Origin: Fibrobacter sp.
GTDB lineage: Bacteria; Fibrobacterota; Fibrobacteria; Fibrobacterales; Fibrobacteraceae
Assembly: GCF_017551775.1 (NCBI RefSeq)
Contig: NZ_JAFZKX010000049.1
Coordinates: 1 to 34,007, forward strand
Direction of reading: 5' to 3'
Length of the DNA: 34,007 bases
Position 1 is the stretch's first letter; each line of letters starts with the position of its first letter. Both the position numbers and the translations under genes were made by a program. The notes beneath the pieces are model-generated. The model saw nothing but the letters and a program-made list of their open reading frames with translations, was not told the origin of the DNA and did no database searches. Shown in pieces: positions 4,001 through 33,411 of the stretch.

Positions 4001-4053
4001 CGATAAACGGCTTTTAAAACCGGCCGCCCCGTTTTATATGCGACGGGTGCGGC

Positions 4054-4084
4054 TTCTTTATGCAACAAGGCGTTGCATAAAGAA
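4054..4084. promoter_or_regulatory. Perfect 13-bp inverted repeat upstream of the TIGR02147 regulator
   Basis: TTCTTTATGCAAC (4054-4066) and GTTGCATAAAGAA (4072-4084) are exact reverse complements around a 5-base spacer. A related half-site GTTGCATAGAA lies at 4142-4152, immediately before the -35 box at 4156. No T run follows on either strand, so an operator fits better than a terminator. A role in binding the regulator encoded at 4190 is inference. Confidence 0.55.
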
Positions 4085-4155
4085 ATAAAAAATCTAAACT
4101 TTTATAAAAACTTGGGATTTTGATTGAAAAATAACACTTTTGTTGCATAGAACTA

Positions 4156-4184
4156 TTGACAATCGGCTTTCCGGGATGTATAAT
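4156..4184 (+). promoter_or_regulatory. Consensus sigma-70 promoter of the TIGR02147 regulator
   Basis: TTGACA (4156-4161), a 17-base spacer and TATAAT (4179-4184) match the housekeeping consensus exactly. Transcription would begin at about 4190-4192, on the ATG of the gene, implying a leaderless mRNA. Confidence 0.85.
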
Positions 4185-4189
4185 TATAG

Positions 4190-5029
4190 ATGATGAGACC
4201 GATTGTCGAATATTCCGATTTCCGCCAGTACATGCGGGACTACTACGAGGAGCGCAAGCGCTGTTCGGTGTTCTCGTGGCGTGAATTCTCGAAACTCGCG
4301 GGCTTTACCTCGTCTTCGTACATGAAGGTGGTCTGCGACGGCAAGAGCAAGCTGAGCCGTGTCGGGGTGGAACGTACGGGACAGGCCATGGGCCTCGTCG
4401 GGTTCGAGATGGAATATTTCCGCGCCATGGTCGAGTTCGGCCAAAGCGAGACCGAGTTTAAGAAGAAGGCGGCTTACGAGAACATGCTGGCCATCGCCAA
4501 GGCCCACAAGGTCCGCGTGATGGAAGGCGACCTGTTCGAATTTTACGATTCCTGGCACAACCCGGTGGTGCGCGAACTCGCCCCGCTGATGCCGGGCGCC
4601 ACTCCCGGCGATATGGGGAAGATGTGCTGTCCCGAGGTCACTGCGGCGGATGTGCAGAAGAGCCTGAGTTTCCTTACGAGGGCGGGGCTCCTGAAAAAGG
4701 CCGGGAACGACGCCTTCGTGCAGGCCGAGGCCTCGATCGTGGGGACACCGGATGCGACCCGGCTCGCGCTTCGGGGAATGCACGGTCAGATGTCTAGGCT
4801 CGCGACGTCCGCGGTTGAGCTCCCTGTGGACGAGCGCCATTTTAGCGGAATCACCATGGGGCTTTCGCGCAGGAGTTACGAACGCATCGCCAGCCTGATT
4901 GATGAATTCCGCCGTCAGGTTATCGCCGTTGCCGCCGAAGACAAGGATATCGACCAGGTTTACCGCCTGAACATGCAGCTTTTCCCCTTGAGCAGGAAAG
5001 TGAAGGAGTGTGAAAATGAAAAAGCTTGA
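4190..5029 (+). CDS. TIGR02147/DUF4423-family putative transcriptional regulator
   Basis: The 279-residue soluble protein has no signal peptide. It opens with the family's typical start (RPIVEYSDFRQYM), followed by a helix-turn-helix-like stretch at about 27-66 (FSWREFSKLAGF, then a basic segment). The remaining helical region includes the 'SLSFLTRAGLLKK' winged-helix-like element and corresponds to DUF4423. The family is a Fibrobacter paralogous group thought to regulate neighbouring genes; the DNA target is not known. The ATG at 4190 sits 6 bases after a consensus -10 box with no ribosome-binding site, so translation may be leaderless; ATG 4193 is an equivalent alternative. It overlaps the next gene by 14 bases, suggesting translational coupling with the lipoprotein genes that follow. 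Confidence 0.88.
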   Translation: MMRPIVEYSDFRQYMRDYYEERKRCSVFSWREFSKLAGFTSSSYMKVVCDGKSKLSRVGVERTGQAMGLVGFEMEYFRAMVEFGQSETEFKKKAAYENMLAIAKAHKVRVMEGDLFEFYDSWHNPVVRELAPLMPGATPGDMGKMCCPEVTAADVQKSLSFLTRAGLLKKAGNDAFVQAEASIVGTPDATRLALRGMHGQMSRLATSAVELPVDERHFSGITMGLSRRSYERIASLIDEFRRQVIAVAAEDKDIDQVYRLNMQLFPLSRKVKECENEKA

Positions 5030-6868: not shown

Positions 6869-8566
6869 ATGAAAGGAAAGGTTTCTTTTGTGATTGCGGC
6901 CCTGGCACTTGCTTTTTTGCAGGCGCCGGTTTTTGCGGCGGGCCTCGTAAAGCAGAAAATCGACACGACGGATGCGATGGCGACGCTCGCGAATTACGAC
7001 CGCGGATTCTATACGCCGCAGGTTCTGCACTTGAAACCTTCGGGTGGCAAGCCGATCGGTAAGCCGTGGGCAAAGCTTTTGCACCTGCGCGCCGAAATAT
7101 CGGAATTTAGCAGCCATGCTTGGCTGGGCATCGATACCACCGGCGGCAAGAACGATACCACCTGGGGCAAGAACCAGGACTTGACCGAAGACGCCCTGAA
7201 TGTGCTGCAGGAATCGCTTGACAGCATCCGCGCGAATAGGGGCTTTGCTGTCGTGCGCATCTGTTACGACCCGTGGTACAACGGCCGCAGCAACGTGACG
7301 CCGGATCATGAGTGGGTACTGAAGCACGTGAAACAGCTTGCTCCCGTGCTCTCGAAAAATACCGATGTGATTGTGGCGCTCGAGATGGGAATGCACGGCG
7401 CCTACGGCGAGATGCACAGCGATACGAACATCACGTACGACCGCATTGCCGAAGCGACGAACCTGATGCTGCGCAGCACACCGCCCGAACTGAAAATCCT
7501 GACGCGCACGGGCAACTACTCGGCGAAGGTGCTGGGGTTTGACAACTGGGGAGTCGACTTCCATATAGACGGCGAGAAGTTTGCCGAAATCGCGAAGGCG
7601 AAAGGCGACACCATGTACCGCGTGGGAATGTTCAACGACGGCTACTTGGGAACGCAATACGATTACGGTACGTGGGGTGCCGACTGCAAGACGTCCATTT
7701 GCCGCGAAGAGGGAGTGGCCTGGCTCGAGAAGTACGGCATCAACACGCCCTACGGTGGCGAGGCGCTCACGACGGCCGAAAATTACCAGGTCATCAATAC
7801 GCCGGAGTTCCTCTCTTACGAGGGCTTCCGCACGCATACGAGTTACCTGAACATCCAGTGGAACAACAACCTGATCGACAGCTGGAAAAAGACGCCGTTC
7901 AACGTCAAGGATTTCGATTACGATTTTGAGCGCGTCGATTCGCTCACGGGTTTCAAGTACATCAACGACCATCTGGGCTACCGCTTCGTGCTGCGCGAAG
8001 CCTGGATTACGGATACGGTGGGCGCCGACGGCATTTTCAAGGCGAAGGTGCGCATCCAGAACGTGGGCTTTGGTAATTTGACGTGGAAAGCTCCAGTCCG
8101 GCTTGCCGTTTTGACGGACTTGGAAGGAACTGATTTGTTGATTTGTCCGATGCCCACGTATTACGACTTGCCGGACATCGATTCCCGCGATATCCATAGC
8201 CGTACCATATCGATTGCGGGCGGCGATACCGTGATGACGTTCGACGGCAATAACGAAATTGAGATTTCGACCAAATTGAATATACGGGGCAAAGGGCGTT
8301 ACCAGGTGTATCTGAAGATTGGCGATATTCAGTTCGCCAATCACGAAGTTTCCGGCATAGGGTCTTGTGGCGAAGAGCGGCCTGCCGCTTACTTGGGCAA
8401 GGTCTATTATGATGAGGACATTAAGACTTCGATTCCGCGCGCATTGACGACTCGTGATTCGCAAAAGCAGAACGCCCCCTTCGTGCAGAGGGTGCGCCAC
8501 AATGCGATTGTCCGCGATGGTGAAAAATCCTACCGCCTGAATGGAGCGAAGGTTCTGAAAAAATAA
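6869..8566 (+). CDS. Secreted DUF4874/DUF4832 protein, putative glycan-related
   Basis: GGAGG at 6860-6864 supports the ATG. The 565-residue product has a signal peptide (cleavage near VFA-AG, about residue 24). The N-terminal half matches DUF4874: the 'DRGFYTP' opening, the LKHVKQLAPVLSKNTDVI stretch and an MGMHGAYGEMH element where family members have GxxGxWGEWH. The second half matches DUF4832, with MFNDGYLGTQYDYG and TPYGGEAL; a beta-rich tail of about 170 residues follows. The first domain is probably a TIM-barrel related to glycoside hydrolases, and the conserved Glu of GAYGEMH could be catalytic (inference; activity is not established). It stands alone between a terminator and a convergent gene. 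The basic end (GAKVLKK) is not a clear sorting domain. Confidence 0.85.
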   Translation: MKGKVSFVIAALALAFLQAPVFAAGLVKQKIDTTDAMATLANYDRGFYTPQVLHLKPSGGKPIGKPWAKLLHLRAEISEFSSHAWLGIDTTGGKNDTTWGKNQDLTEDALNVLQESLDSIRANRGFAVVRICYDPWYNGRSNVTPDHEWVLKHVKQLAPVLSKNTDVIVALEMGMHGAYGEMHSDTNITYDRIAEATNLMLRSTPPELKILTRTGNYSAKVLGFDNWGVDFHIDGEKFAEIAKAKGDTMYRVGMFNDGYLGTQYDYGTWGADCKTSICREEGVAWLEKYGINTPYGGEALTTAENYQVINTPEFLSYEGFRTHTSYLNIQWNNNLIDSWKKTPFNVKDFDYDFERVDSLTGFKYINDHLGYRFVLREAWITDTVGADGIFKAKVRIQNVGFGNLTWKAPVRLAVLTDLEGTDLLICPMPTYYDLPDIDSRDIHSRTISIAGGDTVMTFDGNNEIEISTKLNIRGKGRYQVYLKIGDIQFANHEVSGIGSCGEERPAAYLGKVYYDEDIKTSIPRALTTRDSQKQNAPFVQRVRHNAIVRDGEKSYRLNGAKVLKK

Positions 8567-8664: not shown

Positions 8665-10539
8665 TTAGGGAATCGCTTCCATAATCAGGCCGGTGGTGAG
8701 CAGTTCCGGTAACACGACCTGCTTGCTTATGTCTCCCTTCGGATAAATCGCGTAGGCGGGCACGCCGGATTTTCCCATGCTGCGCAGCAGTTCGTTCACC
8801 TCGGGCGTTTCGCGGGTCCAGTCCGCCTTCATGCGCACGACTCCCGCGCTGTCCATCGCTTTGCGGAATTCTTCGCGATCGAGAACTGCGGCTTCGTTCG
8901 TCTTGCAGGTAAGGCACCAGTCGGCGGTCGCGTCTATGAAGATGGTCTTGCCGGCCTTCGCGAATTCGGCGACGAGTTCCGGTGAGTAGCGGTACCACCC
9001 GCCTTCGAGCACCTGCTGGGCCATGCGGGCTTCGAAGCGTTCGTTCAGGTTTTGCTCGTATTGCGGTGCAAAGTAGGCGAACCAACTGAAAACAAATGCG
9101 ATGGCGCCTATGATGAGTATTCGCATTTCACCGGCGAACGAAGAACCCGGAGGTGCAAATTTGCCGAGGGCAAAACTGAAGACGACGGTCGCGAGGATGA
9201 TGCCTACAAAGAGCGCGACGCCCATTCCGCCGGCCTGCTCGTTCACGATCCACAGGAGCCAAGCGACGGTGGCGAGCAAGAGCACGCCCATCACTTTCTG
9301 GAGCGTTACCATCCACTGGCCCGGTTTCGGGAACACCTTCAGCACGGCGGGGAATACGCTCACCAGCAGGTAGGGGAGCGCGAGCCCGAGCCCTGCGGCG
9401 GTAAAGAACAAAAAGAGCACGGGTGTCGATGCGGTAAAGGCGAATCCCATCGCGGTCCCGAGGAAGGGAGCGGAGCAGGGGGTGCTCAGAAGGACGAGCA
9501 GCGCTCCGGTGAAGAACGCCCCGACAAGTCCCGACTTGTGGCCCGCGGCGTCCATCTTCGTGGTGGCCGATCCCGGGAGCCAGATTTCAAAGACCCCGAA
9601 GAAGCTCATCGCGAATGCCGTGAGGATGATGGCCATGAAGGCGATGAAACCCGCGCTCTGGAACTGCATTCCCCAGCCGGCAGCTCCGCCGCCGGCCTTG
9701 ATGGCGGCAACGATTCCGGCGAGAATCCAGAAGCTTGCGAGGATGCCTGCGGTCGTCGAGAGTCCGAGCGCGAGCAGGCGCTTGCGGGATTCGCCCGCCT
9801 GCTTGATGAGACTGAAGAGCTTGAGCGAGAGCACCGGCAGTACGCACGGCATCAGGTTCAGGATGATGCCCCCGAGCAACGCGAAGAACAGCAGGAGTGC
9901 CGCGGCGGCGGCGCCTTTGTTACCGGCAAAGCCTTCGTTGCCAGCAAAGCCGTTTAATTCCTGTGCGGTCCCTGGGTCCGCTCCGTCATCGTTTTTTTTT
10001 AAGCCGGAGGCTCCGATGCCCGAACGGCTCCCGATGCGGATGTCCACGCTCGCGGGCGCGAGGCAGATGGAATTGTCGCAGGCCTGGTAATGGAATGTCG
10101 CGTTCGTGGTGAGGCTGTCGTAACCGTCCGCAACGGCGGTCACGGGAATCTTTATCTGGAAATGTCCCTTGAACACGAGGTTTTCAAATTCAAGGACTTC
10201 GTTGTATTCCTTGATGGGTTCGGGCCAAACGGGTTCGCCGAATTCGATTCCGCGGGCTGCGATTTCGATGGAAGACGGCTTCAGGAATTCGTCGGCTGCG
10301 ACGTTCGCGTTCACATGCCAGTTGTCCGGAATTACGATGTCGACGATGACGGAAGATTCCTTGGAAAGTGCCCCTGCGGTGTAGTGGAGCGCCGCCTCGG
10401 GCGGCTCCATCGCGTTCATGTTGAATTCTTGGGCCTGCACTTTGGTAACAGCCGTTGACAAAATGCAAAGAAAAATTGCGAAAAAGCAACTAATGGTTGC
10501 ATAATTTTTTCGGGTCTTGAAAATCGCACTGATATTCAT
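8665..10539 (-). CDS. dsbD: DsbD-type protein-disulfide reductase
   Basis: The reading frame extends to 10590, but the ATG at 10539 gives a proper signal peptide and avoids overlap with the divergent sigma factor gene, so I use it (624 residues). Domains in order: periplasmic DsbD-alpha domain (about 40-170) with paired Cys154/Cys159 (CDNSIC); an eight-helix membrane domain (about 212-490) with the electron-transfer Cys232 (MPCVLP) and Cys355 (STPCSAP); and a C-terminal periplasmic thioredoxin-like domain with Cys542/Cys545 in WCLTCK. All six redox cysteines of the family are present. The enzyme passes electrons from cytoplasmic thioredoxin across the inner membrane to periplasmic disulfide isomerases and related proteins. 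Length is slightly above that of E. coli DsbD (565). A Gly/Ala/Asn-rich linker precedes the first membrane helix. Confidence 0.95.
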   Translation of the reverse strand: MNISAIFKTRKNYATISCFFAIFLCILSTAVTKVQAQEFNMNAMEPPEAALHYTAGALSKESSVIVDIVIPDNWHVNANVAADEFLKPSSIEIAARGIEFGEPVWPEPIKEYNEVLEFENLVFKGHFQIKIPVTAVADGYDSLTTNATFHYQACDNSICLAPASVDIRIGSRSGIGASGLKKNDDGADPGTAQELNGFAGNEGFAGNKGAAAAALLLFFALLGGIILNLMPCVLPVLSLKLFSLIKQAGESRKRLLALGLSTTAGILASFWILAGIVAAIKAGGGAAGWGMQFQSAGFIAFMAIILTAFAMSFFGVFEIWLPGSATTKMDAAGHKSGLVGAFFTGALLVLLSTPCSAPFLGTAMGFAFTASTPVLFLFFTAAGLGLALPYLLVSVFPAVLKVFPKPGQWMVTLQKVMGVLLLATVAWLLWIVNEQAGGMGVALFVGIILATVVFSFALGKFAPPGSSFAGEMRILIIGAIAFVFSWFAYFAPQYEQNLNERFEARMAQQVLEGGWYRYSPELVAEFAKAGKTIFIDATADWCLTCKTNEAAVLDREEFRKAMDSAGVVRMKADWTRETPEVNELLRSMGKSGVPAYAIYPKGDISKQVVLPELLTTGLIMEAIP

Positions 10540-17286: not shown

Positions 17287-18462
17287 TTAGATGGTCGGGA
17301 ACGCCTTTACTGTGTAGGCGTCGAACGTCTTTTTCATTTCGGGGAACCATTCACCGGCTTCCTGGTTGTAAGCCTGGAACCCGCTGGTCTTGCCGTAGGC
17401 CCAGTAGTGCCAGCTGATGCCGTAGCTTTCGGCGGCCTTGATGACGTACTGTGTCCATTGCGCGCGCATGGCTTCGCTCGGGGCATCAGCTCCGCATTTC
17501 GAACCATTGCGGCCGATTGCGCCGAATTCGCCCATGTTCATGGGAACGCCGTGTGTGCCGTCTGTATCGGGGTAGTACGCTTTGGCGGAATCGACATACG
17601 ATTTGAAATCCCTTCCAATCTGGGTCAGGTCGGAGCTCGTGATTCCCGCTCCGCAGGGGTACGTGGTGGCGGTACCCTGGTGGGTGAACTCATAGGGATC
17701 GTAGTAGTGACCGCTCACGATGATGTTGCCGTCCTGGGGAAGGTCGAGCTGCTTGATGGCGGCGAACTTGGAGTAGCCGTTGCCCTCGAACATGATGGTC
17801 TTGGTCTGGGTTACGGCGCGGATGGCGTTGTAGCAGGCCGTCATGATGGCGTTCACGGTCGAACTCTTCTTGATGTCGTGCGGTTCGTTCATGATTTCGT
17901 AGACGAGCAGGCTATCCGGGAATTCGTTCAGCGCTGCCGCCACCTGGGTCCACATGATGACGAACCTGTTCAGTTCTTCGTTGAAGGCCACGGGATCGTC
18001 CTCGTAGTGTACCGCGGCGTAGTTCATGTCGTTGTAATGGTGGAAATTGACGATAACCGCAAGTCCGAGGCTGTGCGCGATTGCGATGTCTTCCTTGACG
18101 CCGGCGAGGCGCAGCGGGTCGATGTTGCCGTCGATATCGGCATCCTGTTCCCAACGTACGGGAAGGCGCACGGAATTGAAACCGGCTGCCTTGATAATCT
18201 GGAAGTCCTCGTCCTTGATGCAGTTGCCCCAGCCGCAGTCAGCGTTCGCGCCGGTGCCAACGGATTCCCAGGAGTTGCCGAGGTTGATGCCGTGGCCGAG
18301 CCTCTGGTTCATGGCTCTGCCCTTGGAGTAGTCGACCGCCGGGTGGCTCTTGGTATTCTTGTCATCGTTTTCCGAAGCCTGGTTTAGACCCCCGCCGCCT
18401 GAGTTGCAGCCTGCGAGGATTAATGCGGTCGAAAGAGCGATAATGTATTTGTAAAAAAGCAT
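17287..18462 (-). CDS. GH5 endoglucanase lipoprotein
   Basis: The 391-residue product has a lipoprotein signal ending in LAGC (Cys19), then a Gly/Asn-rich linker to about 45 and a single GH5 (beta/alpha)8 catalytic domain to the end. Typical landmarks are INLGNSWE (60-66), SVRLPVRW (97-104) and FHHYND (140-145). The acid/base is Glu193 (YEIMNEPH) and the nucleophile Glu312 (MGEFGA). It probably cleaves beta-1,4-glucans while anchored to a membrane; the number of glucose units or preference for other glucans cannot be told from sequence. AGGTGAT just before the ATG is a good ribosome-binding site. It is divergent from the surface-protein operon at 18712 and shares its 249-base upstream region, so joint regulation is possible. 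Confidence 0.94.
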   Translation of the reverse strand: MLFYKYIIALSTALILAGCNSGGGGLNQASENDDKNTKSHPAVDYSKGRAMNQRLGHGINLGNSWESVGTGANADCGWGNCIKDEDFQIIKAAGFNSVRLPVRWEQDADIDGNIDPLRLAGVKEDIAIAHSLGLAVIVNFHHYNDMNYAAVHYEDDPVAFNEELNRFVIMWTQVAAALNEFPDSLLVYEIMNEPHDIKKSSTVNAIMTACYNAIRAVTQTKTIMFEGNGYSKFAAIKQLDLPQDGNIIVSGHYYDPYEFTHQGTATTYPCGAGITSSDLTQIGRDFKSYVDSAKAYYPDTDGTHGVPMNMGEFGAIGRNGSKCGADAPSEAMRAQWTQYVIKAAESYGISWHYWAYGKTSGFQAYNQEAGEWFPEMKKTFDAYTVKAFPTI

Positions 18463-18679: not shown

Positions 18680-18711
18680 GTAAGCCATTGAATTTGGAGA
18701 TTTTGTACCAT

Positions 18712-19449
18712 ATGAAATCACATCTGCAGACCATCATCTGGAAGTGCGCCGTGGGCTCGCTTCTTCTTGCGTCTTTCTCCTTTGCGAGTTTCAGCGACTT
18801 TAGGGATAGAGATAATTCCCGCTTCGTTACACGCGAGGCTAAACCTTTCCGTCCAGACAAGGACGTGGTAAGCGTCGTCATGCGCGAAGCCATCCCCCGC
18901 GGCGGTGGATATACCTACCAGTACCCGCGTGAAAACCCTGAACCGATCCTCACGGATAAGTACGCCATGGAAGGTGCTCTTTCCATGGAAATTGAGCTTA
19001 TCGCGAGCGACTATTCCGGTGTGGCTATCTGTATTGCCGGTTCCGTGGACCTTACCCCCTATTTTGAGGAAGGCGTCCTCGAGTTCTGGATCAAGGGCGA
19101 CAAGGGCGGTGAAAACGCTCTGTTCGTGCTCGTCGACGACGGCGTGAAGAGCAACGGTGAATCCCTTCAGGTGAAGCTCCGCTCCAAGAGCCTCGGTGAA
19201 ATCACCACCGAATGGAAGCATTTCAGCATTCCGCTCAAGCTGTTCGGCAAGACCGGTGTGTACTGGGACGCGAAGAACACCCGCGAAGTCATGCTCCCGT
19301 TCTCTTGGGAAAACTTCAAGGGCTTCCGTCTCGAAGTCCGCAAGGATGAGAACGAGTCCTTCAAGGTCTGGATTGACGATATCGTAATCAAGAAGCACGG
19401 CAAGGCTTACGAAGGCCCGGCCAACTACCCGTTCCGCAACGCAATTTAA
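18712..19449 (+). CDS. Secreted carbohydrate-binding-like protein, first gene of the surface operon
   Basis: ATG 18712 is chosen over the upstream in-frame TTG at 18688 because GGAGA lies 11 bases before it and the signal peptide then begins at residue 1 (245 residues, cleavage near SFA-SF, about 26). The mature part looks like one beta-sandwich. The run from about 110 to 225 (GVLEFWIKGDKGG, the 'EWKHFSIPL' strand, 'FKGFRLEVRKDE', 'KVWIDDIVI') resembles the galactose-binding-like fold of CBM11/CBM30-type modules and of CIA30-like domains. No catalytic residues were recognised. A role in binding plant polysaccharide or an outer-membrane partner is inferred from the fold and from the three outer-membrane protein genes that follow, the first starting 9 bases after the stop. 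Confidence 0.8.
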   Translation: MKSHLQTIIWKCAVGSLLLASFSFASFSDFRDRDNSRFVTREAKPFRPDKDVVSVVMREAIPRGGGYTYQYPRENPEPILTDKYAMEGALSMEIELIASDYSGVAICIAGSVDLTPYFEEGVLEFWIKGDKGGENALFVLVDDGVKSNGESLQVKLRSKSLGEITTEWKHFSIPLKLFGKTGVYWDAKNTREVMLPFSWENFKGFRLEVRKDENESFKVWIDDIVIKKHGKAYEGPANYPFRNAI

Positions 19450-24351: not shown

Positions 24352-26460
24352 ATGATGAATAATAAGAAGACCACGCTCGTTATTGCGACTGCACTTATGT
24401 TCTCTGCGTCGGCGGCATTCGCTGATGCGGATTCCTCCGTCGTCGTTAAGCAGACTTCGTTCTTGCAAAAACTTGATTCCCTGAACAAGGCCATTCTCGG
24501 CCTTCGTCTGGGCGGTACGGCCAAGGCGGGTGGTGCCATTTCGCAGGTGCATTCCAATCAACTCGCGGACTACTCCGCGACTAAGGAAAATGAGCTCTAT
24601 ACCGATGTGAACCTCAAGTTCCTCGCCCAGCCTTCTTCCGAGACCCGCCTCGATGTGCAGGTGCGCCTCCACAAGGATTGGCAGAGTGCCATGGACGAGA
24701 ACAACAACCCGGTTATCGGCCACTGGTTCAGCTACGATGGCAAGATTCTGAATAACCATGTCGATTTCAACTTGGGCTACATGCGTATCGGCTATTCGCC
24801 GCTTACCATCAATACCCCGCAGATTGAAATCCTCCAGGAACCGGAAATTTTCCGTCAGAATCGTGTCGAAGCGCTCTCTTACCGTAACCTCGACACTACG
24901 TCCCGCCGTCTTATGCAGGGTCTGAATGCCGAGTTCCATAGCGGTGCCGTGGGTGTCGTTGACGATATCTATGCGCAGGCTACGGGTGCCCGTATGCGTA
25001 ACACCGCCAAGAAGAACGACCAGGTGTTCTTCGACTTCGACTGGGCTGACCGTTATGCTTACGGTCTGCGTTTCGGAGCCAGCACCTTCGGCTTCAACCT
25101 CGGTGCGAACTATGTCGGTGCTTTCGACCGCCGCTTGAGCACGCGCTCCCGCGACATGGGCCTGAAGGACACGATTTTCTATGACAACAACAGCGTTTTC
25201 TCGGCTGAATTCGGATTCAATTCGAAGAAACTGCTGTCTGACCTGCCGATCAGCTTTGGCTTGAACGCCGAATATGCGATGTCTTGGTGGGATGTCGACA
25301 TCGAAACGAAGGATGATAGTCCGACGTTCAACACGCAGATCAAGGAATACACGGGCTTCCCCAGTGGCGACCTTACGACGACCCTTGTGTACGTGTCTAA
25401 CACTGTCGATCTGACCGGTGTCGAAAGAGTCACGAAGGATTTCCTTGACGACAAGGGCAATGCCTTGAATATCAAACCCTACGTGGAAGGTTCGTTCTCC
25501 AAGTTCAATTTCAAGGTGAACGGCATGTACTTGATGAACGACAAGGAATTCTGGTCCGAACTCGCTTCTTCGCCGAACTACACGAACAACGGGATTATTT
25601 TCAATGCGAACGCCCTCTATGGCGATGCTGATAATGCTCTGATTTCGAACTTTGCCTCGGGCAACCTCGAAAATCTCTACTTCATGGTCTACAACACCGA
25701 CCTGTTGACGGCTGCAACGCTCATGACCTCTTCCTCCAAGACGGTCCTTTCGGGCAACTCCGAAGCAAGAGAAATGTACTTCCGCCTGTACAACAACTAC
25801 AAGTTGGCTCATTTCTACCGCAACGGCTACGATGCCAACACCATGAAGAAGCTCGAAGCCGCTCAGGCCGTTCTCCTGATGGATCCGTCCGTGAATCTCG
25901 CTCTGCCTTATGGTGTTGCTACGCCTGATCGTAAGGGCTTCGCTGCATCTCTCGATGCTGACTGGGACGATGCTGTCAAGCTTAACGTGCGCTTCTCCCA
26001 GTACACTGCCGAAGCGGATGAAAACAAGTTCACGACGATTGGCGCTGGCGTTGGCGTAGATTTGGGCCGTCTGATTCCGAGCCTGGAACGTAAGCTGGAA
26101 CTTTCCGCTTCCTTTGAAAAGGCGTCCGAGAGTTCCTTCCTCAAGCGCTCCTCCCAGCGCGTTGTCGCGGGCGCTTCCGCCGATATTTGGGGCCCGATTG
26201 GCCTTCAGCTTGGCTTGCAGAAGCTGAACAAGGAATTCGAAGCTCTCCCTGTTGGCACGGCTTTCGTCCAGAAGGTTGACGAACTGCTCATCTTCGTTGG
26301 CCCCAAGTTCCGTATCGCTCCGGAATCCTATGTTACGGTCCGTTACGGCATGCTGAATAACTCCGTGGATTACCTGACCACGGATGCGACTGGGATTGTG
26401 AAAAAGAATCTTTCTGTCGACAAGAACCTTATCACTGCCGACGTTACGGTTAATTTCTAG
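24352..26460 (+). CDS. Outer-membrane beta-barrel protein, third of three paralogues
   Basis: GGGAGGG (24338-24344) lies 7 bases before ATG 24352, which I prefer over ATG 24346, only 1 base from it. The product has 702 residues. A signal peptide (cleavage near AFA-DA, about 25) precedes a barrel-like body that ends in TVNF. YSPLT at 148-152 and the EP pair at 163-164 match the preceding paralogue at identical distances. Overall similarity is clear in this segment and weaker elsewhere. It is followed without a gap by a lipoprotein gene. As with its neighbours, porin-like transport or attachment is inference. Confidence 0.82.
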   Translation: MMNNKKTTLVIATALMFSASAAFADADSSVVVKQTSFLQKLDSLNKAILGLRLGGTAKAGGAISQVHSNQLADYSATKENELYTDVNLKFLAQPSSETRLDVQVRLHKDWQSAMDENNNPVIGHWFSYDGKILNNHVDFNLGYMRIGYSPLTINTPQIEILQEPEIFRQNRVEALSYRNLDTTSRRLMQGLNAEFHSGAVGVVDDIYAQATGARMRNTAKKNDQVFFDFDWADRYAYGLRFGASTFGFNLGANYVGAFDRRLSTRSRDMGLKDTIFYDNNSVFSAEFGFNSKKLLSDLPISFGLNAEYAMSWWDVDIETKDDSPTFNTQIKEYTGFPSGDLTTTLVYVSNTVDLTGVERVTKDFLDDKGNALNIKPYVEGSFSKFNFKVNGMYLMNDKEFWSELASSPNYTNNGIIFNANALYGDADNALISNFASGNLENLYFMVYNTDLLTAATLMTSSSKTVLSGNSEAREMYFRLYNNYKLAHFYRNGYDANTMKKLEAAQAVLLMDPSVNLALPYGVATPDRKGFAASLDADWDDAVKLNVRFSQYTAEADENKFTTIGAGVGVDLGRLIPSLERKLELSASFEKASESSFLKRSSQRVVAGASADIWGPIGLQLGLQKLNKEFEALPVGTAFVQKVDELLIFVGPKFRIAPESYVTVRYGMLNNSVDYLTTDATGIVKKNLSVDKNLITADVTVNF

Positions 26461-26471
26461 TGAGGTCGAAA

Positions 26472-27305
26472 ATGAAGAATTTAAAGATTTCTCTTCTTGC
26501 TGCCGGTGCGACTATTGCGCTTTTGGCTTGTTCCTCCTTGGAAGTCAGCAATCCGGAAGCCGAGAATTTCCCGGTTGGCTGGTCGCTTGCTGAATATATA
26601 AGCGTGAACCCCGATCTCCGTGCGCTCCAGATCATGGACAAGGTCACCATCATCAACTCGATTTCGAAGTTGCCTTCTGATTCGGCCGAGTTCATGGCTA
26701 ACCCTGATTTGAAGCAGTTTGCCATTACCTACGCAGGCTTTACCGAAGAAAGCTACGACGTGGATAATATCGACAAGCGTAAACACCTCAAGAACTTCAA
26801 CATCAACGGAGTCTCCAACGAGGCCGTGGTGTTCGATTCCCTGCTCGCAGGCAAGACCGTGTGTGCGGCGATGCTCAATGGCAAGGGAGTGGCTTTTGAT
26901 TCGACGGTGATTGAACGCCAGTATCTTGTCTATGGCAAGACCGAAGGCCGTCCTTTCCGCAAGTGCGGGGCGGGTGACCAACTCGTGAAAAAGGGTGAAT
27001 GCCAGGCTGACGCAAGCGAGGCTGTTGGCTATAGCAAGCACCTGTACTGCGCTTCTGAGGGCGTGACCTACTGCATCGACTGTGACCTGGTTTTGGATGA
27101 TTGCCCCGAAGTTATCGTCGAACCGGAGAGCTCTAGTTCCGAGGCGGCTCCTGAATCTTCTGAAGCTGCGGCCGAAGTCGAATCCAGTTCTTCTGAAGCT
27201 GCACCCGTGTCCAGCGAAACTGTTGAACCCGAAAGCTCTGCCGGCGAAGGCGGTGAAACCGCTGAACCGCAGTCCAGTTCTGCAACGGAACCTGTTACTG
27301 AATAA
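26472..27305 (+). CDS. Lipoprotein with Ser/Glu-rich C-terminal tail, surface operon
   Basis: GAGGT (26462-26466) is 5 bases before ATG 26472, so I reject the GTG at 26460 that overlaps the previous stop. The 277-residue product has a good lipobox (LLAC, Cys20). A globular region of about 185 residues follows, with Cys pairs toward its end (RKCGAG, GECQ, YCASE, YCIDCD, DDC). The last 60 residues are Ser, Glu, Ala and Pro only. Such tails are usual as linkers in this genome's surface lipoproteins, but here the linker is C-terminal with nothing after it. No family recognised. It may anchor or assemble the neighbouring barrels and the GH18-like protein. Confidence 0.82.
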   Translation: MKNLKISLLAAGATIALLACSSLEVSNPEAENFPVGWSLAEYISVNPDLRALQIMDKVTIINSISKLPSDSAEFMANPDLKQFAITYAGFTEESYDVDNIDKRKHLKNFNINGVSNEAVVFDSLLAGKTVCAAMLNGKGVAFDSTVIERQYLVYGKTEGRPFRKCGAGDQLVKKGECQADASEAVGYSKHLYCASEGVTYCIDCDLVLDDCPEVIVEPESSSSEAAPESSEAAAEVESSSSEAAPVSSETVEPESSAGEGGETAEPQSSSATEPVTE

Positions 27306-27319
27306 AAGGTGGGATTACT

Positions 27320-28375
27320 ATGAAACTCAAACTTTTTGTAACGACAATTGCGGTTGCCTGCGTGGCAATGTCCCAGGCTGCAGCCGACAAGGTGATTGGC
27401 TATTTCCCCTACTGGAGCCAGTATTCCCAGTTCTATCCGAAGGATATCCGCTACAACACGGTTACCCACATCCACTATTCTTCGCTCCTGCCTGCTGAAG
27501 ACGGCTCGCTCGCTTTCCCCGACGAAAACGACGCTCCGAACTACGACTCGCTCGCGAACATGTGTGCCGCCAACAATGTGAAGCTGGTGGTTTCTGTCGG
27601 TGGCGTGGAAGCCGAAGGTGCACTGAAGGCTATCGCTGGTTCTGACGAGGCCCTCTCGACGTTTGTTGGCAACCTCAAGACTTGGGTTGGCGAACATAAG
27701 GCGAATGGCGTGGAACTCGACTGGCAGAACATCACTGCTGACGATGCCGCGGACTATGCGAAGATGATGAACGCCCTCGTGGATGCCTTCTCCGGCATCA
27801 TCGTGGCTTCTACCATGTACCCCTTGGCAGCGATGGAACCGTACACCGCTGAGGTAATGAACAAGCTCTCTTACATCAACGTGTTCATTCCCGACCAGAT
27901 GAGCGAAGAGAACTCTACGCTCGTTCCGAACCAGGGCGGCAAGATTATCGCCGAAACTCTCGAGAAGGCCGCTGATGCTGGCATTCAGAAGAGCCTCCTC
28001 GTGCCGGTGGTCTACTTCTACGGCAAGTCCTTCCTGGGCGCTACGGGCTTCGGTTCTTCGCATCAGGGAACGGGTAGCGGTAACGAAGGTTACCTGCCGT
28101 ACAAGGAACTCATGAGCAAGTTCGACACTCCCGACTACAAGGTTTCCTTCGATTCTGACTCTCAGTCCGAAATTGCCGTGAGCAAGGAAGAAGCCATCGT
28201 GTTCATGGGTATTCCTTCTGTGAAGGCTGTCGCCGTGAACGTGAAGAACAACGGTTATGCCGGCGTGGCGGTTTACGATGTGTCGCAGGACCATCATGAA
28301 CCCATCGTCTCCGTGCTGGTGACTATCGGCTTGGAACTCCGCCCCGGCGTGAACTACAAGGCTGCGAAGAAGTAA
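27320..28375 (+). CDS. Secreted GH18-fold protein lacking the catalytic glutamate (pseudo-chitinase)
   Basis: AGGTGGG before the ATG and a signal peptide (cleavage near AAA-DK, about 22) support the start; the product has 351 residues. The GH18 (beta/alpha)8 fold shows in KVIGYFPYWS (24-33), the KLVVSVGG strand (88-95) and the position of the DxxDxDxE motif. Here that motif reads NGVELDWQ (129-136): the first Asp is Asn, the second Asp is Glu, the third Asp (134) is kept, and the catalytic Glu is Gln136 (codon CAG at 27725-27727). Family knowledge says an E-to-Q change there abolishes hydrolysis but allows sugar binding. It is therefore probably a lectin-like protein. It is the last gene of the operon and ends in a strong terminator. 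Confidence 0.88.
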   Translation: MKLKLFVTTIAVACVAMSQAAADKVIGYFPYWSQYSQFYPKDIRYNTVTHIHYSSLLPAEDGSLAFPDENDAPNYDSLANMCAANNVKLVVSVGGVEAEGALKAIAGSDEALSTFVGNLKTWVGEHKANGVELDWQNITADDAADYAKMMNALVDAFSGIIVASTMYPLAAMEPYTAEVMNKLSYINVFIPDQMSEENSTLVPNQGGKIIAETLEKAADAGIQKSLLVPVVYFYGKSFLGATGFGSSHQGTGSGNEGYLPYKELMSKFDTPDYKVSFDSDSQSEIAVSKEEAIVFMGIPSVKAVAVNVKNNGYAGVAVYDVSQDHHEPIVSVLVTIGLELRPGVNYKAAKK

Positions 28376-28402
28376 TCTCTCGCAATAGAACATTTAAGAA
28401 AG

Positions 28403-28430
28403 CGTCCGGCCTACCGGACGTTTTCTTTTT
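28403..28430 (+). terminator. Rho-independent terminator of the surface operon
   Basis: CGTCCGG (28403-28409) and CCGGACG (28414-28420) form a 7-bp GC-rich stem with a 4-base loop, followed by TTTTCTTTTT. Confidence 0.92.
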
Positions 28431-28449: not shown

Positions 28450-28960
28450 CGTCGCATCTCGTCACACTGCCGCCTTGTGCGGCAAGGCAAGTGTGCCCAC
28501 GTCACCCCGCGTCACCCCGCACGCCGTAGGGGCAAGAGTGTCCATAAACATTGTTTGGCAAGCGTGTCCACTGGCATCAGCCCGTGGATGCCCTTGTCTC
28601 GCCATAGTCTCGCCATCGGCATGACGTAGGGCAAGGGGGCCCTCGCACATTGCGTCTCTTCGCGTTCGGGCGTGGCGTAGGGCAGGGATATCCTCGCCGC
28701 CCACGTTCACCCTGCGTCACACCGCCGCCTTGCGCTGCCAGGCAAGTGTGCCCGCGTCACCCCGCACCCCGTAGGGGCAAGGGTGTCCATAAACATATAA
28801 GGCAAGCGTGTCCACTGGCATCCGCCCGTGGATGCCCTTGTCTCGCCCTGGGCACGCCATCGGCATGGCGTAAAGAATGGACTCCATCGCACATTGCGTC
28901 TCTTCGCGTTCGGGCATGGCGTAGGGCTGGAGCATCCTCGCCGCGTCCGTCGCATCTCGT
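28450..28960. repeat. Non-coding tandem duplication, about 250 bp x 2, with internal short motifs
   Basis: The stretch from GTCACAC at 28461 is repeated from GTCACAC at 28716 with roughly 80% identity by eye and small indels (offset 255 at the left end, 244 at the right). The array is bounded by identical 13-mers CGTCGCATCTCGT at 28450-28462 and 28948-28960. Inside, shorter degenerate motifs recur: GGCAAGNGTGTCC-like, GTAGGGCANGG...CCTCGCC-like, and GCCATCGGCATG (a third copy of the last at 28963). It is GC-rich, unlike normal intergenic DNA here. Open frames across it on the minus strand have no start signals and only reflect composition, so I see no gene. Confidence 0.8.
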
Positions 28961-28982
28961 TGCCATCGGCATGACGTCGGGC

Positions 28983-29013
28983 AAAACAAAAACCCCGGCG
29001 ATGTGCCGGGGTT
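28983..29013 (-). terminator. Rho-independent terminator of the GH5 gene (minus strand)
   Basis: AACCCCGGC (28991-28999) and GCCGGGGTT (29005-29013) are perfect 9-bp complements with a 5-base loop. On the minus strand the stem is followed by TTTTTGTTTTG. It lies 24 bases after the stop of the gene ending at 29037. Confidence 0.92.
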
Positions 29014-29036: not shown

Positions 29037-31238
29037 TTATTTCTTTTCCCAGGTGTAGCTGCTGAAGTTGCTGCCCTGCTTGATGCGGACGAAGTACTTG
29101 CCAGCGCTCATGCCTTCAACCGGAATCCAGTTGGTTCCCGCACCGAGCATCACCTTCTGACTCTTTTCCACATGGCCGAGAGCTGTGAAGATTTCGACGG
29201 ATGCGAGGCCTGCCTTCGGGCTGGTCAGCATGATGCCTTCGTTGTTGAACTTCGCCTTGAAGGCTGCCTGCGGCTTCTGGGCCATAATCGGGTTCTTTCC
29301 GCCGTTGCCCACGATGACGATGACGGTCGAGTCGATAGCAGCTCTTTCAGTTGTTTCGGCAGCGACAGCCCTGATGGCCACGGTGGCGTCCTGGTCGGCG
29401 GTAATGAGGAAGCCTTCGCTATTCACGAGGTAGATGGAGGATTCCGCTCCGTCAAAGGTGTAGTAGATCGGAGCCTTGCCGTAGAATGTCTCGCTGGCGA
29501 AGAATCCCGGGATTACGGCACCCTTGTCAACGGTCATCGACTTGAAGTTGTCGCCCAGCTTGTCGTCCATCTTGGCGTATTTGACCGTAATCGTGTCGTT
29601 AAAGGCGATGTAGCCGGTTGTGGCCGGAGCGGTGGCCACGATTTTTGCCGTGCCGAGGGTTCCGGTGAATTCGTACATGTACACGCTGGCGCCTTCAGCC
29701 TGGCCGAAGCAGGACTTGGAGTTGGAGCAGGTGGCCTTCTTGATCTTGACGATTTCGGGGTTCAGAGACTGGACCGTGAATTTGGATCCCTGGTCCGTCT
29801 CGCCACTAGCGGATACGATAACATCCATCGTCTTGCCGTCCTGGTCCAGGTCTCTTCTCTGCTTGCCCCTGGTGCAGTCACCAGATGTAAAGCAGTTGAA
29901 GTCAACGAAACCGCTGATGGTCTGCTTGGGTTCGGCAGTAACAACAATGACCGACTGGGAACCGTCGTTGCCGGTCATGATGACGAAACCGGCGGATTTG
30001 ACGGCACCTGCCGATGTAACGACGGATTCGTCGCTGGAGGTGTAGGTACAGCCGGACTTAAAGGAACTTGCAACGCTGCCGGCAGTTTCCTTGACGGTGG
30101 TTGCCGAGAACGAGCAGCTTCCGCTTTTCAGGGTCGAGGCATATTCCGAGGCCCAGTTGGTGGCGTGTCCGGTGAGGTATTTCTTTACGAAGTTACCCGA
30201 GTTGGTGTAGCTTGCGGTGGCGAGGTCGGACTGCTTGGTGAGGGCCTTGTCGCCTGCGAACATGGCAGATCCTTCATCGGAAGCGTTACCAATCTTGGTC
30301 ACCTTCTGGCGGAGGCTCCAGTTGCAGTTGCTTATCTTGTTCTGCTCCATGAAGTTCGTCCAGTCGGAAGAAGCGCTCGTGTTGGCGTCGCTCTTACCGT
30401 CGGCAGTCGTTGTACCCCATTCGGTAATGAACACGGCGTTTCCGCCGTTCTTGCACGATGTGACCGCTCCGCCATAGGAACCCACGGAGTGGGTGCCTGC
30501 ATAGAAGTGGAACACGTAGCCGATGTTGTCGCCGCTTACGCCGCCGCAAGATCCCATCTGGGACCAGTTCGGGGTACCTACGAGGGCGAGGTTCTTGCTG
30601 CCCGCACTGCGGATGCCGCCGATAACGTCGTTGGCGTAGCTCTTGATCTGGCCCCAGTCATTGTAACTACCGGCAGGTTCGTTGAACACTTCCCAAATGA
30701 TGTTCGGCACGTTCTTGTACTTTGCGGCCATTTCACTGAAGAAGGCCTTCGCCTTGGGCTTTTCCTTGCCGTCATAGGCGCGGTGGCTGTGCCAGTCGAT
30801 GATGATGTAGATGTCGTTCTCGATAGCGGCTTCGACCATTATGTCGATCTTGCCGGTCTGCGATTCAGGGGTGCTGAAATAGGAGTATTTTTCGTCGAGC
30901 GGATTGGACGAGCCACCATCGCTATCGTAGTACTGGATACCCATTGCGTAACGGAACACGTCGATTTTCAGGTTATCGACGGCCCACTTGATAACTTCCT
31001 TGTTGTAGTACTGGATGCCGGTTGCATCGGACCAGAACATGCTCATGCCGCGGATCATGGCTTCCTTGCCACTTTTCTGACCCACAATTTTGTTTCCATT
31101 AGTACCAAGGGCGCCGTGGACTTGCACCGGGCCTACGCGGAGGGGCTTAGCCGTTGATGCGGCTGCATTGGCTTCTACCGCGCCGAGGAGGAGCGCGCCT
31201 GCTGCCAATGCCTTTATCGTTTTGCTGATTCTAGTCAT
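29037..31238 (-). CDS. Secreted GH5 endoglucanase with T9SS-like sorting tail
   Basis: AAGGAG 6-7 bases before ATG 31238 fixes the start (733 residues), rather than an upstream in-frame ATG at 31277. The signal peptide is cleaved near ANA-AA (about 25). The GH5 domain (about 35-330, resembling subfamily 2) shows IRGMSMFWS, FRYAMG and IIIDWHSH. The acid/base is Glu187 in IIWEVFNEP and the nucleophile Glu273 in FITEWGTT. Two or three beta-rich regions of unknown family follow (about 385-650). The last 75 residues form a beta-sandwich with VEIFTALGH and AGKYFVRIKQG, like T9SS type A sorting domains, so export across the outer membrane by T9SS is likely. It follows the GH8 gene on the same strand by 70 bases. 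Confidence 0.93.
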   Translation of the reverse strand: MTRISKTIKALAAGALLLGAVEANAAASTAKPLRVGPVQVHGALGTNGNKIVGQKSGKEAMIRGMSMFWSDATGIQYYNKEVIKWAVDNLKIDVFRYAMGIQYYDSDGGSSNPLDEKYSYFSTPESQTGKIDIMVEAAIENDIYIIIDWHSHRAYDGKEKPKAKAFFSEMAAKYKNVPNIIWEVFNEPAGSYNDWGQIKSYANDVIGGIRSAGSKNLALVGTPNWSQMGSCGGVSGDNIGYVFHFYAGTHSVGSYGGAVTSCKNGGNAVFITEWGTTTADGKSDANTSASSDWTNFMEQNKISNCNWSLRQKVTKIGNASDEGSAMFAGDKALTKQSDLATASYTNSGNFVKKYLTGHATNWASEYASTLKSGSCSFSATTVKETAGSVASSFKSGCTYTSSDESVVTSAGAVKSAGFVIMTGNDGSQSVIVVTAEPKQTISGFVDFNCFTSGDCTRGKQRRDLDQDGKTMDVIVSASGETDQGSKFTVQSLNPEIVKIKKATCSNSKSCFGQAEGASVYMYEFTGTLGTAKIVATAPATTGYIAFNDTITVKYAKMDDKLGDNFKSMTVDKGAVIPGFFASETFYGKAPIYYTFDGAESSIYLVNSEGFLITADQDATVAIRAVAAETTERAAIDSTVIVIVGNGGKNPIMAQKPQAAFKAKFNNEGIMLTSPKAGLASVEIFTALGHVEKSQKVMLGAGTNWIPVEGMSAGKYFVRIKQGSNFSSYTWEKK

Positions 31239-31292
31239 AAAAGACTCCTTTATACGCCAAAGATAAATTATGTACACCCATCCAGAGTGTAA

Positions 31293-31298
31293 AATATA
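31293..31298 (-). promoter_or_regulatory. Possible -10 element between the GH8 and GH5 genes
   Basis: TATATT on the minus strand in the 70-base gap after the GH8 stop. It could give the GH5 gene its own promoter in addition to readthrough from the GH8 gene, since no terminator is seen in the gap. Confidence 0.4.
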
Positions 31299-31308
31299 AT
31301 TTCATTGT

Positions 31309-33411
31309 TTACTTCCGTATCCGTAGTATCTGCGTTTTGCGACCTTCTGTGACCTTCATCGCATAAACTCCCGCACCGGGAACCAGCTGGTCTACGGGAA
31401 GGCTTCCCGACTTTGTAAGATTAATTTTACGCACGATTTTTCCGCTCATGTCGAAGACGGAAATCGTTGCTCCAGAACCGAATCCCTGGAATTCTATCAT
31501 GTTGCCGACTTGACGCACATCCCTGTGCGCCGAAATCTTTTTTGCCTCGGGAACGGAGACGAGTCCTTGGAGGGCTGCGACCGTATTCCCTGCGGAATTG
31601 AGAATCTGGAGGCTCGTGATTTCGAAGGAACCATAGCCGCCCTTGCTCATCTTGGCTTCGAATTTGATGCCGCGTACCGCCTTGAGGACGTCGTCCCTGC
31701 TGCAGGCGAAGGCCCAACTGGGGGTCACGAGTTCGGTGAAGTCTCCGTATTGGTCGGCGGCAAGGCTAACGGTCACGTCCTGGAAATCGTCGGAGGGGTG
31801 GAAAAGGTAGCCCGGCTCGCCGCCTTCGTCGCCGGTTTCAAGCGTCGCCTCGTTGAGAAGCGCCATGCGGATAACACCCTGCGTGTGGATGCGCACCTTG
31901 ATGCTGGCCGCGTCGGAGATGTCGAGGTTGCTTTCGTCGGCCTTGAACGATACCGCGACACCTGCAAAGGGGTACTTGAGGTCGGCAGAGGCGTCGTAGG
32001 TGGGTTCCGGGGCGATGTACATGGAGGCGGCGACCCTGGTTCCTGTTGCCGTCTGGTATATGGCCGATTGTCCTGAATCCGGCTGCATCTTGGTGACTCC
32101 GAACTTGTCGCTGTAGGCTCCCCATTTCCAGAACCCGGCGGCGAAGGTGGACGGGTCGTTGGGTAGCAGCGTGCCTACCGGGGCCGTTACCTGTCTCCTG
32201 TTGTTCTCGCTGGGCGTGAAGGCCGTGTAGCCGGTCATGTTGTAGAAGTTGGGCATGTTGCCCGTCATGAGCAAAAGGTAGAGGATGTTGAGGGTCGCGG
32301 GGTAGTATTTTTCACCCTTCGGGGAATCGGGCTTGGTGCGCCCTTCGGTGTTGATGAGCGTTTCGTACAAAGTTTCCATATAATGGCCGGGCTCGGAAGC
32401 CGAAGCCATGGCGAGTCCGAGGCCACCGACGAACGAGGAGGTGACAAAGTCGCGAACGGGAGTGCCGTCGAGCTTGTAGCCGGCGGAGATGTAGGTGGCA
32501 TGCTCGTACGAGGTTTCCTTGAGCCAGGGGACGATCTTGTCGTTAACGGCCTTGGCTCCGGTATCGCCGTACCAGTAGTAGGCCCAGGCCATGCGCCACG
32601 GGGTGCGGCTCGCGTCATCGAAGAATCCGATACCGTTGGTAATGGCTGCGTTGCCCTGTACGGCCTTGTGGCTGTTCCAGTCGCACCAGTCGGGTACGAG
32701 GCCTGTTTTCGAATCCTGGCACTGGCTCACGTCGCTCAGGGTCTTCTTGATGGCGGTATCCCAGAAGGTGTCGTTCGTGACTTCCTTGAACAGGTGGAAT
32801 GCGCCTATCGCCGCGTAGCTCGGGTTGAAGTAGTTGTTCCAGTTGCTGCCGGGTTTCACGCTTCCGTCGCTGGTCATGTCGTTGCTCTTGATCCAGCTGA
32901 TAAGGCTCTTCGCGTCAGATAGGTAGCTCGCGTCGCCCCATTGCTTGGATGCCATCACGAGGGCTACCGCGGCGTCGAATTCGGCGTCGGTGGCGCTACC
33001 GTCGTCGGCTTTGCCGTTATTGGTGTTGATGTGCCACTTCATGCCGCTGGCGCCGCCGCCCATGGAATACTTTTTCCAGAAGGCCCAAAGCTTGTTGAAT
33101 TCGCTCTGGTAGTCGCCCTGCGAACCCGACATGTACACCATGATGAGCATGCCGTAGGCGATGCCTTCGGAGACGGACATCTCGGTACTGTCGTTAGGGC
33201 TGATGATGCGGGCGGTTCCGTCGCCCATATCTTTGTACCAGCACCCTTTCCAGGTGTCGAAATGAGCCTTGATTGCGCTCGGGACGGCAAACTTGGCCGT
33301 ATTTCCCTGCGGATAGGCCTGGTTCTGCGGGAATGGGAAAGCGGGCGCGGCGTTAGCTACGCCTGCCAAAACGGCTATGCCGGCGATTGCTGCTAAGTGA
33401 CGTAGTTTCAT
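31309..33411 (-). CDS. Secreted GH8 endoglucanase with C-terminal binding-like and sorting domains
   Basis: The 700-residue product has a signal peptide (cleavage near ANA-AP, about 21). The GH8 (alpha/alpha)6 domain spans about 25-395, with the acid Glu82 in VSEGIAYGM and the probable base Asp266 in FFDDASRTPWR. The family signature ATDAEFD (140-146) has Glu144 where most members have Asp. A beta-sandwich region at about 410-610 (FWKWGAYSD, FAGVAVSFKAD, GYGSFEITSLQIL) looks like a carbohydrate-binding module of galactose-binding-like fold. The final 75 residues (ISVFDMSGKIVRK, GAGVYAMKVTEG, ending RIRK) resemble a T9SS type A sorting domain. The enzyme should cut internal beta-1,4-glucan (or mixed-linkage glucan/xylan) outside the cell. 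AAGGA about 12 bases upstream is the likely ribosome-binding site. Confidence 0.94.
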   Translation of the reverse strand: MKLRHLAAIAGIAVLAGVANAAPAFPFPQNQAYPQGNTAKFAVPSAIKAHFDTWKGCWYKDMGDGTARIISPNDSTEMSVSEGIAYGMLIMVYMSGSQGDYQSEFNKLWAFWKKYSMGGGASGMKWHINTNNGKADDGSATDAEFDAAVALVMASKQWGDASYLSDAKSLISWIKSNDMTSDGSVKPGSNWNNYFNPSYAAIGAFHLFKEVTNDTFWDTAIKKTLSDVSQCQDSKTGLVPDWCDWNSHKAVQGNAAITNGIGFFDDASRTPWRMAWAYYWYGDTGAKAVNDKIVPWLKETSYEHATYISAGYKLDGTPVRDFVTSSFVGGLGLAMASASEPGHYMETLYETLINTEGRTKPDSPKGEKYYPATLNILYLLLMTGNMPNFYNMTGYTAFTPSENNRRQVTAPVGTLLPNDPSTFAAGFWKWGAYSDKFGVTKMQPDSGQSAIYQTATGTRVAASMYIAPEPTYDASADLKYPFAGVAVSFKADESNLDISDAASIKVRIHTQGVIRMALLNEATLETGDEGGEPGYLFHPSDDFQDVTVSLAADQYGDFTELVTPSWAFACSRDDVLKAVRGIKFEAKMSKGGYGSFEITSLQILNSAGNTVAALQGLVSVPEAKKISAHRDVRQVGNMIEFQGFGSGATISVFDMSGKIVRKINLTKSGSLPVDQLVPGAGVYAMKVTEGRKTQILRIRK

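Follow-up and report, generated by a model that had tools for sequence, protein, structure and literature searches.

Proteins that keep the fold of glycoside hydrolase family 18 (GH18) and lack its catalytic Glu are a known kind. Among animal chitinase-like proteins, Ym1, Ym2 and the insect IDGFs have a natural Gln at this position, and YKL-40, YKL-39 and OVGP1 have Leu or Ile; the account of chitolectins in PMC1945033 gives Gln for Ym1/Ym2 and IDGF and Leu or Ile for CHI3L1 and OVGP1. GH18-like proteins of Bacteroidales (BT1284, B. faecium) are likewise bacterial, catalytically impaired and encoded with glycan-uptake genes, next to endoglycosidases (PMC11180146); they are described as being of the ENGase type, with an N-terminal DUF1735 domain, in N-glycan loci, a description that sets them apart from the protein considered here. 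No measurable binding of high-mannose N-glycan was reported for the Bacteroidales pseudoenzyme (PMC11180146), and therefore glycan binding cannot be assumed from the GH18 fold.

The protein Fisuc_1530/FSU_2012 of F. succinogenes S85 (A7UG63; GH18 'chitinase' CBP-9) is secreted and reported to bind cellulose. It is tabulated as a GH18 'chitinase' with the characterised activity 'cellulose binding' (PMC3079729, Table 3; also PMC6851124, Table 1), the entry in PMC3079729 citing Mitsumori 1996 for 'cellulose-binding protein 1'; the binding is cited here as reported, from these secondary citations. A signal at residues 1–20 is listed for the protein (PMC6851124, Table 1), which was detected in the outer membrane and, about 6-fold more abundantly, in the medium (PMC4668043). 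Expression of its gene was stable and above the 90th percentile (PMC6204037), and the protein was slightly less abundant on cellulose (-1.30-fold; PMC6851124) and is therefore not cellulose-induced. The decrease was tied to lower chitinase activity and peptidoglycan turnover, the activity of the S85 envelope on a chitotriose substrate having fallen along with FSU_2012 (PMC6851124). Two GH18 'chitinases' are counted for S85 (PMC3079729, PMC4704652), and chitin hydrolysis has been inferred for the whole phylum from GH18 counts (PMC4704652). The main texts of the open-licence papers treat FSU_2012 as a chitinase or simply as cellulose-binding, and no mention of a missing catalytic residue was found in them.

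Fold and active site of the GH18-like protein

The window, i.e., the whole 34,007-nucleotide stretch of DNA that was analysed, comes from Fibrobacter sp., a fibre-degrading gut bacterium, and carries a GH18-like gene at the end of a six-gene operon (Table 1). Its open reading frame starts with ATG and encodes 351 amino acids plus a stop codon. Gene order identifies Fisuc_1530/FSU_2012 as the orthologue in S85: the genes for the ECF sigma factor (Fisuc_1517), GH5 (1523), CBM30 (1525), GH18 (1530) and GH9 (1531) correspond, and the gene counts agree. The GH9 gene, reported as Fisuc_1531 in S85 (PMC4668043), directly follows the orthologue in L072 and L074.

Table 1. Features of the operon and of its GH18-like gene, in window coordinates
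Feature	Position	Strand	Basis
Secreted CBM30 protein, first gene of the operon	18688..19449	+	PF21582, E 8.3e-18
Outer-membrane beta-barrel, 855 aa	19459..22026	+	Structure model, fold search
Presumed outer-membrane protein, 763 aa	22045..24336	+	Sequence appearance only
Presumed outer-membrane protein, 704 aa	24346..26460	+	Sequence appearance only
Lipoprotein-like protein (LLACSS, Ser/Glu-rich tail)	26460..27305	+	14 bp upstream of the GH18-like gene
GH18-fold pseudoenzyme gene	27320..28375	+	ORF, Pfam, AlphaFold2 model, fold search, gene order
Signal-peptide-like N-terminal segment, residues 1-22	27320..27385	+	Sequence; pLDDT <50 in the model
Degenerate catalytic motif NGVELDWQ, residues 129-136	27704..27727	+	DNA AATGGCGTGGAACTCGACTGGCAG
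Glu132	27713..27715	+	Glu in 94/94 of the pseudoenzyme clade, Asp in 16/16 sister and paralogue enzymes
Gln136 codon, CAG	27725-27727	+	ORF sequence
Pro191 in place of the GH18 Tyr (ChiB Tyr214)	27890..27892	+	Alignment
Tyr319 in place of the GH18 strand-8 Trp (ChiB Trp403)	28274..28276	+	Alignment
Terminator-like hairpin, 14 pairs and T tail, operon end	28396..28427	+	Pattern match only

The predicted protein matches the GH18 profile PF00704 along its full length (residues 24–324) with 101 bits (cut-off 29.6; E 1.1e-28), and the structure predicted for it by AlphaFold2 (pLDDT 86, pTM 0.87) is a (beta/alpha)8 barrel with the alpha+beta insertion of the family. A fold search with this model retrieved GH18 structures at Z of about 37 over 304–327 residues, including BRP-39, acidic mammalian chitinase, YKL-40 and Ym1; the scores for Ym1, Ym2, YKL-40 and BRP-39 were 36–37. 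The NCBIfam search yielded no family for the GH18-like protein; the same was true of the lipoprotein and of two outer-membrane proteins out of the three. A GH18 fold had been proposed in the initial annotation from its retained landmarks, SVGG (residues 92–95) and the strand-4 LDW, and both the profile match and the superposition bear it out, the predicted structure giving no sign of a different fold. Export via the Sec-type signal-like segment is predicted from the sequence.

Relative to the motif D-G-x-D-x-D-W-E, the protein has D129N, D132E and E136Q, with D134 retained. The initial annotation had read the motif, the CAG codon and the change of three of the four acidic positions exactly as they stand in the DNA. 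It missed two further residues: the Tyr of MxYD (ChiB Tyr214) is replaced mostly by Ala, Thr, Pro or Gly in the protein and its orthologues, and the strand-8 Trp (ChiB Trp403) by Tyr or Phe. The roles of Tyr214, Trp403, Asp140 and Asp142 in ChiB, like those of the YKL-40 residues considered below, are the ones generally given for these families.

Single loss of the catalytic glutamate in Fibrobacteraceae

Relatives were drawn from genome contigs as well as from 126 class genomes, giving 94 distinct orthologous sequences from 11 genera, i.e., all genera of Fibrobacteraceae. None of the 94 carries Glu at position 136; Gln predominates there (69 sequences), followed by Gly (12), Ile (5), Val (2) and Leu (2), with single occurrences of Thr, Met, Ala and Asp, and no orthologue with an intact DxxDxDxE was found in Fibrobacteraceae among the 126 class genomes searched. 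The closest intact sequences are a sister clade outside the family (L060–L063, L125) and the second GH18 of the genus itself (L002 and others); they served as the 16 comparison enzymes, and the catalytic Glu is present in 5/5 of the former and 11/11 of the latter. Position 132 (ChiB Asp140) is Glu in every orthologue and Asp in every intact sequence, and position 134 (ChiB Asp142) keeps Asp in 93/94 orthologues. Hence the alterations at 132 and 136 are a fixed state and no stray mutation, N129 is a local variant (Asp in 56/94), and what is conserved at position 136 is the absence of Glu rather than the Gln on which the initial annotation had focused.

Two orthologues are unusual in their own right. 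The outlying L102 sequence (9090–10148) has EVYWD replacing ELDWQ, with Tyr for the otherwise retained Asp and Asp at the catalytic position, and the L067 sequence (3749–4996) contains a Glu/Ala/Pro-rich insert of about 50 residues shortly past the degenerate motif.

Within the clade, the residues listed for the two further positions include neither the MxYD Tyr nor the strand-8 Trp. Because this Tyr, this Trp and the Glu are gone and D132 is Glu, the subsite -1 machinery for N-acetyl-assisted hydrolysis is dismantled. The protein thus lacks what makes an active GH18 chitinase, namely the catalytic Glu and the Tyr and Trp of subsite -1, and the hydrolytic function was, to judge from the alignment, lost as initially proposed. 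It resembles the chitolectins in having a GH18 fold without the catalytic Glu. The chitin-stacking residues of YKL-40 are W31, W99 and W352 in the numbering generally used; W31 is kept as W32, which is invariant in the clade, and the other two are replaced, W99 by Met, Ala, Ile or Val (a change also visible in the alignment to mouse CHI3L1) and W352 by Tyr or Phe.

In an IQ-TREE phylogeny built with the motif columns omitted, the 38 representatives without Glu formed one clade (support 100/99) beside the intact GH18 enzymes, and therefore the catalytic Glu was lost once; a single change accounts for the loss, and eight letter changes at position 136 are needed in all. Since Gln is the commonest state and is present in both basal branches of the clade, it was possibly the first replacement, and may then have been swapped for Gly or hydrophobic residues in one branch. 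Owing to a long-branch warning (L104, L063, L076 and the outgroup), the rooting of the clade is less secure than its unity. Genus g23 (L097, L098, L099) has one genome of the Gln type and two of the Leu type on different sides of the tree, a split suggestive of operon transfer or of an old duplication with loss.

The GH18-like gene is under purifying selection and is not decaying. The frame is open in every orthologue listed, and dN/dS of the window gene against orthologues with 66–99% protein identity is 0.03–0.17, values at the larger distances being rough because dS is near saturation. Mean conservation is 0.623 for loops of the catalytic face versus 0.544 for those of the opposite face (permutation p 0.03 and 0.02), a rough comparison with loop limits taken from the DSSP string of the predicted structure. 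The derived residues Q34, R44, E132, P229, Y261, P342 and Y346 are invariant or nearly so and point to a constraint specific to the pseudoenzyme clade.

Compared with the animal chitinase-like proteins, the Fibrobacteraceae clade has an independent bacterial origin and an outer-membrane operon setting, carries D132E, has lost the Tyr and lacks two of the three chitin-stacking Trp.

Operon setting

The initial annotation had placed the gene at the end of a surface operon, and it is indeed the last of six, preceded by the genes for the CBM30 protein, the 855-, 763- and 704-aa outer-membrane proteins and the lipoprotein, with intergenic gaps of 9, 18, 9, -1 and 14 bp, and followed by the terminator-like hairpin. 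The S85 counterpart of the CBM30 gene is Fisuc_1525/FSU_2007 (PMC4619616, PMC3079729). Pfam at curated cut-offs gave no match for the three outer-membrane proteins, and NCBIfam gave one weak match for the 855-aa protein, in an acidic N-terminal stretch. The 704- and 763-aa proteins are weak paralogues (22–25% identity). The structure model of the 855-aa protein is a beta-barrel (pLDDT 77), and the fold search matched it to porins, ushers and TonB receptors with Z of 12–15.5 at 6–12% identity; because these matches are generic only, no transport class is assignable. The segment 18688–26460, encoding the CBM30 protein and three large outer-membrane proteins without a named family, is in itself a candidate cellulose-related outer-membrane system.

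The operon block recurs in all genera with long enough contigs. The barrel and the GH18-like gene are both present in every Fibrobacteraceae genome of at least 90% completeness, the few genomes without one or the other being 62–88% complete. Lipoprotein orthologues were detected in many relatives, though some gave none. Outside the family, the 855-aa barrel is encoded in three genomes (G056, G059, G061) that gave no GH18-like match at the cut-off used. In three genomes of another family of the class (L060–L062), an intact GH18 with 28–30% full-length identity shares the neighbourhood of CBM30 and outer-membrane proteins and retains its own DGID(I/L)DWE, M(T/S)YD and Trp. Its gene is divergent from the adjoining CBM30 gene, and the three outer-membrane protein genes follow in the two cases with sufficient contig reach. 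This arrangement suggests that an ancestral enzyme beside the operon was drawn into it, catalysis then being lost.

A cellulase-rich region of the window, with GH9 at 2267–4000, GH5 at 17287–18462 (minus strand) and GH5/GH8 at 29037–33411 (minus strand), also includes a gene for a DUF4832/DUF4874 protein adjoining lipoprotein-like genes (6869–8566). The intergenic region between the GH18-like and GH5 genes, at 28460–28984, contains an imperfectly duplicated sequence (period about 244 bp), its segments being 144 nt at 87%, 51 nt at 90% and 46 nt at 96%; this stretch, whose G+C content is raised (up to 0.64), gives rise to spurious ORFs on either strand and hardly recurs elsewhere in the genome.

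Probable function and alternatives

We consider it most probable, at roughly 0.6, that the gene encodes a cell-surface and exudate protein that binds glycans without cleaving them, its ligand most likely being cellulose or a cellulose-like beta-1,4-glucan. The dead GH18 TIM barrel would be exported via its Sec-type signal and, together with the CBM30 protein, would keep the polymer or pieces of it at the envelope, perhaps through the old substrate groove, in the place where the outer-membrane barrels and the neighbouring cellulases operate; the operon products would work jointly. The initial annotation had likewise favoured a lectin over a chitinase. This idea holds for the most part, and the S85 orthologue is recorded as cellulose-binding and as envelope-associated and extracellular (PMC3079729, PMC4668043, PMC6851124). 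The supporting argument that an E-to-Q change keeps sugar binding is weak, as in related lineages with the gene at the same operon position this residue is G, I, V, L, M, A, T or D, and the chitin-binding subsite is dismantled. Because residue 136 varies, the Tyr and Trp are lost and the YKL-40 Trp99 site is not Trp, the binding mode, if any, would not be that of a chitinase. The retention of only one of the three YKL-40 stacking Trp, W32, counts against glycan binding as the main function, as do the genomes G056, G059 and G061 with a barrel and no GH18-like match at the cut-off used. An overlapping and more specific proposal, which we regard as doubtful, is that the operon is the Fibrobacteraceae counterpart of a Bacteroidetes SusCD-type system for outer-membrane cellulose capture and cellodextrin uptake, with the former chitinase as its cellulose-binding subunit.

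The main rival, rather unlikely in our estimate, is that the protein serves the outer-membrane barrels in structure or assembly, as a subunit or chaperone, with glycan binding secondary or lost. In every Fibrobacteraceae genus its gene stays linked to those of the three outer-membrane proteins, which would fit this role, as would the invariant or near-invariant derived residues beyond the old active site (R44, P229, G337, P342, Y346) and the drift of the catalytic site among Q, G, I, V and L while the rest is constrained; however, the S85 protein is mostly extracellular, about 6-fold over the outer membrane (PMC4668043), and is listed as cellulose-binding. Less likely still is a role as a lectin for chitin or peptidoglycan, which would make the protein the bacterial equivalent of Ym1, IDGF or YKL-40. 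The fold, the Gln and Leu/Ile replacements shared with animal chitolectins (PMC1945033) and the invariant W32 speak for it, but the equivalents of YKL-40 W99 and W352 are changed, the Tyr contacting the N-acetyl group is lost, and the binding reported for S85 is to cellulose.

That the protein is still an enzyme, using Glu132 as a relocated acid or some other mechanism, seems very improbable despite the complete coupling of D132E to the loss of Glu136 (94/94 versus 0/16): the residue at position 132 is located within strand 4 and is not known to be the proton donor in GH18 enzymes, and the Tyr that stabilises the oxazolinium has been lost. The chitotriose activity of the S85 envelope that fell along with FSU_2012 (PMC6851124) can be accounted for by the intact second GH18 in the genome. 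Least probable of all is a former chitinase decaying without function, which would explain the loss of several catalytic residues but conflicts with the dN/dS values, the open frames, the retention in all genera and the high expression in S85 (PMC6204037).

Cellodextrin transport across the Fibrobacter envelope is stated to be unknown and cellulose attachment not fully settled (PMC6851124). A family-wide dead GH18 that is highly expressed in S85 and locked to a CBM30 protein and outer-membrane proteins offers a compact candidate set for both. The annotation of S85 is also affected, since one of its two GH18 'chitinases' is very probably unable to hydrolyse. The family-wide loss of the catalytic Glu makes FSU_2012 an unlikely source of the envelope chitinase activity, the intact second GH18 being the better candidate, and the attribution of this activity to FSU_2012 is probably mistaken; the connection proposed in PMC6851124 of this protein with chitinase activity and the turnover of peptidoglycan calls for re-examination in the light of that second enzyme. 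The second GH18 of the genus is intact in all copies examined, and in the genome of the window (L002) its motif reads DGLDMDWE.
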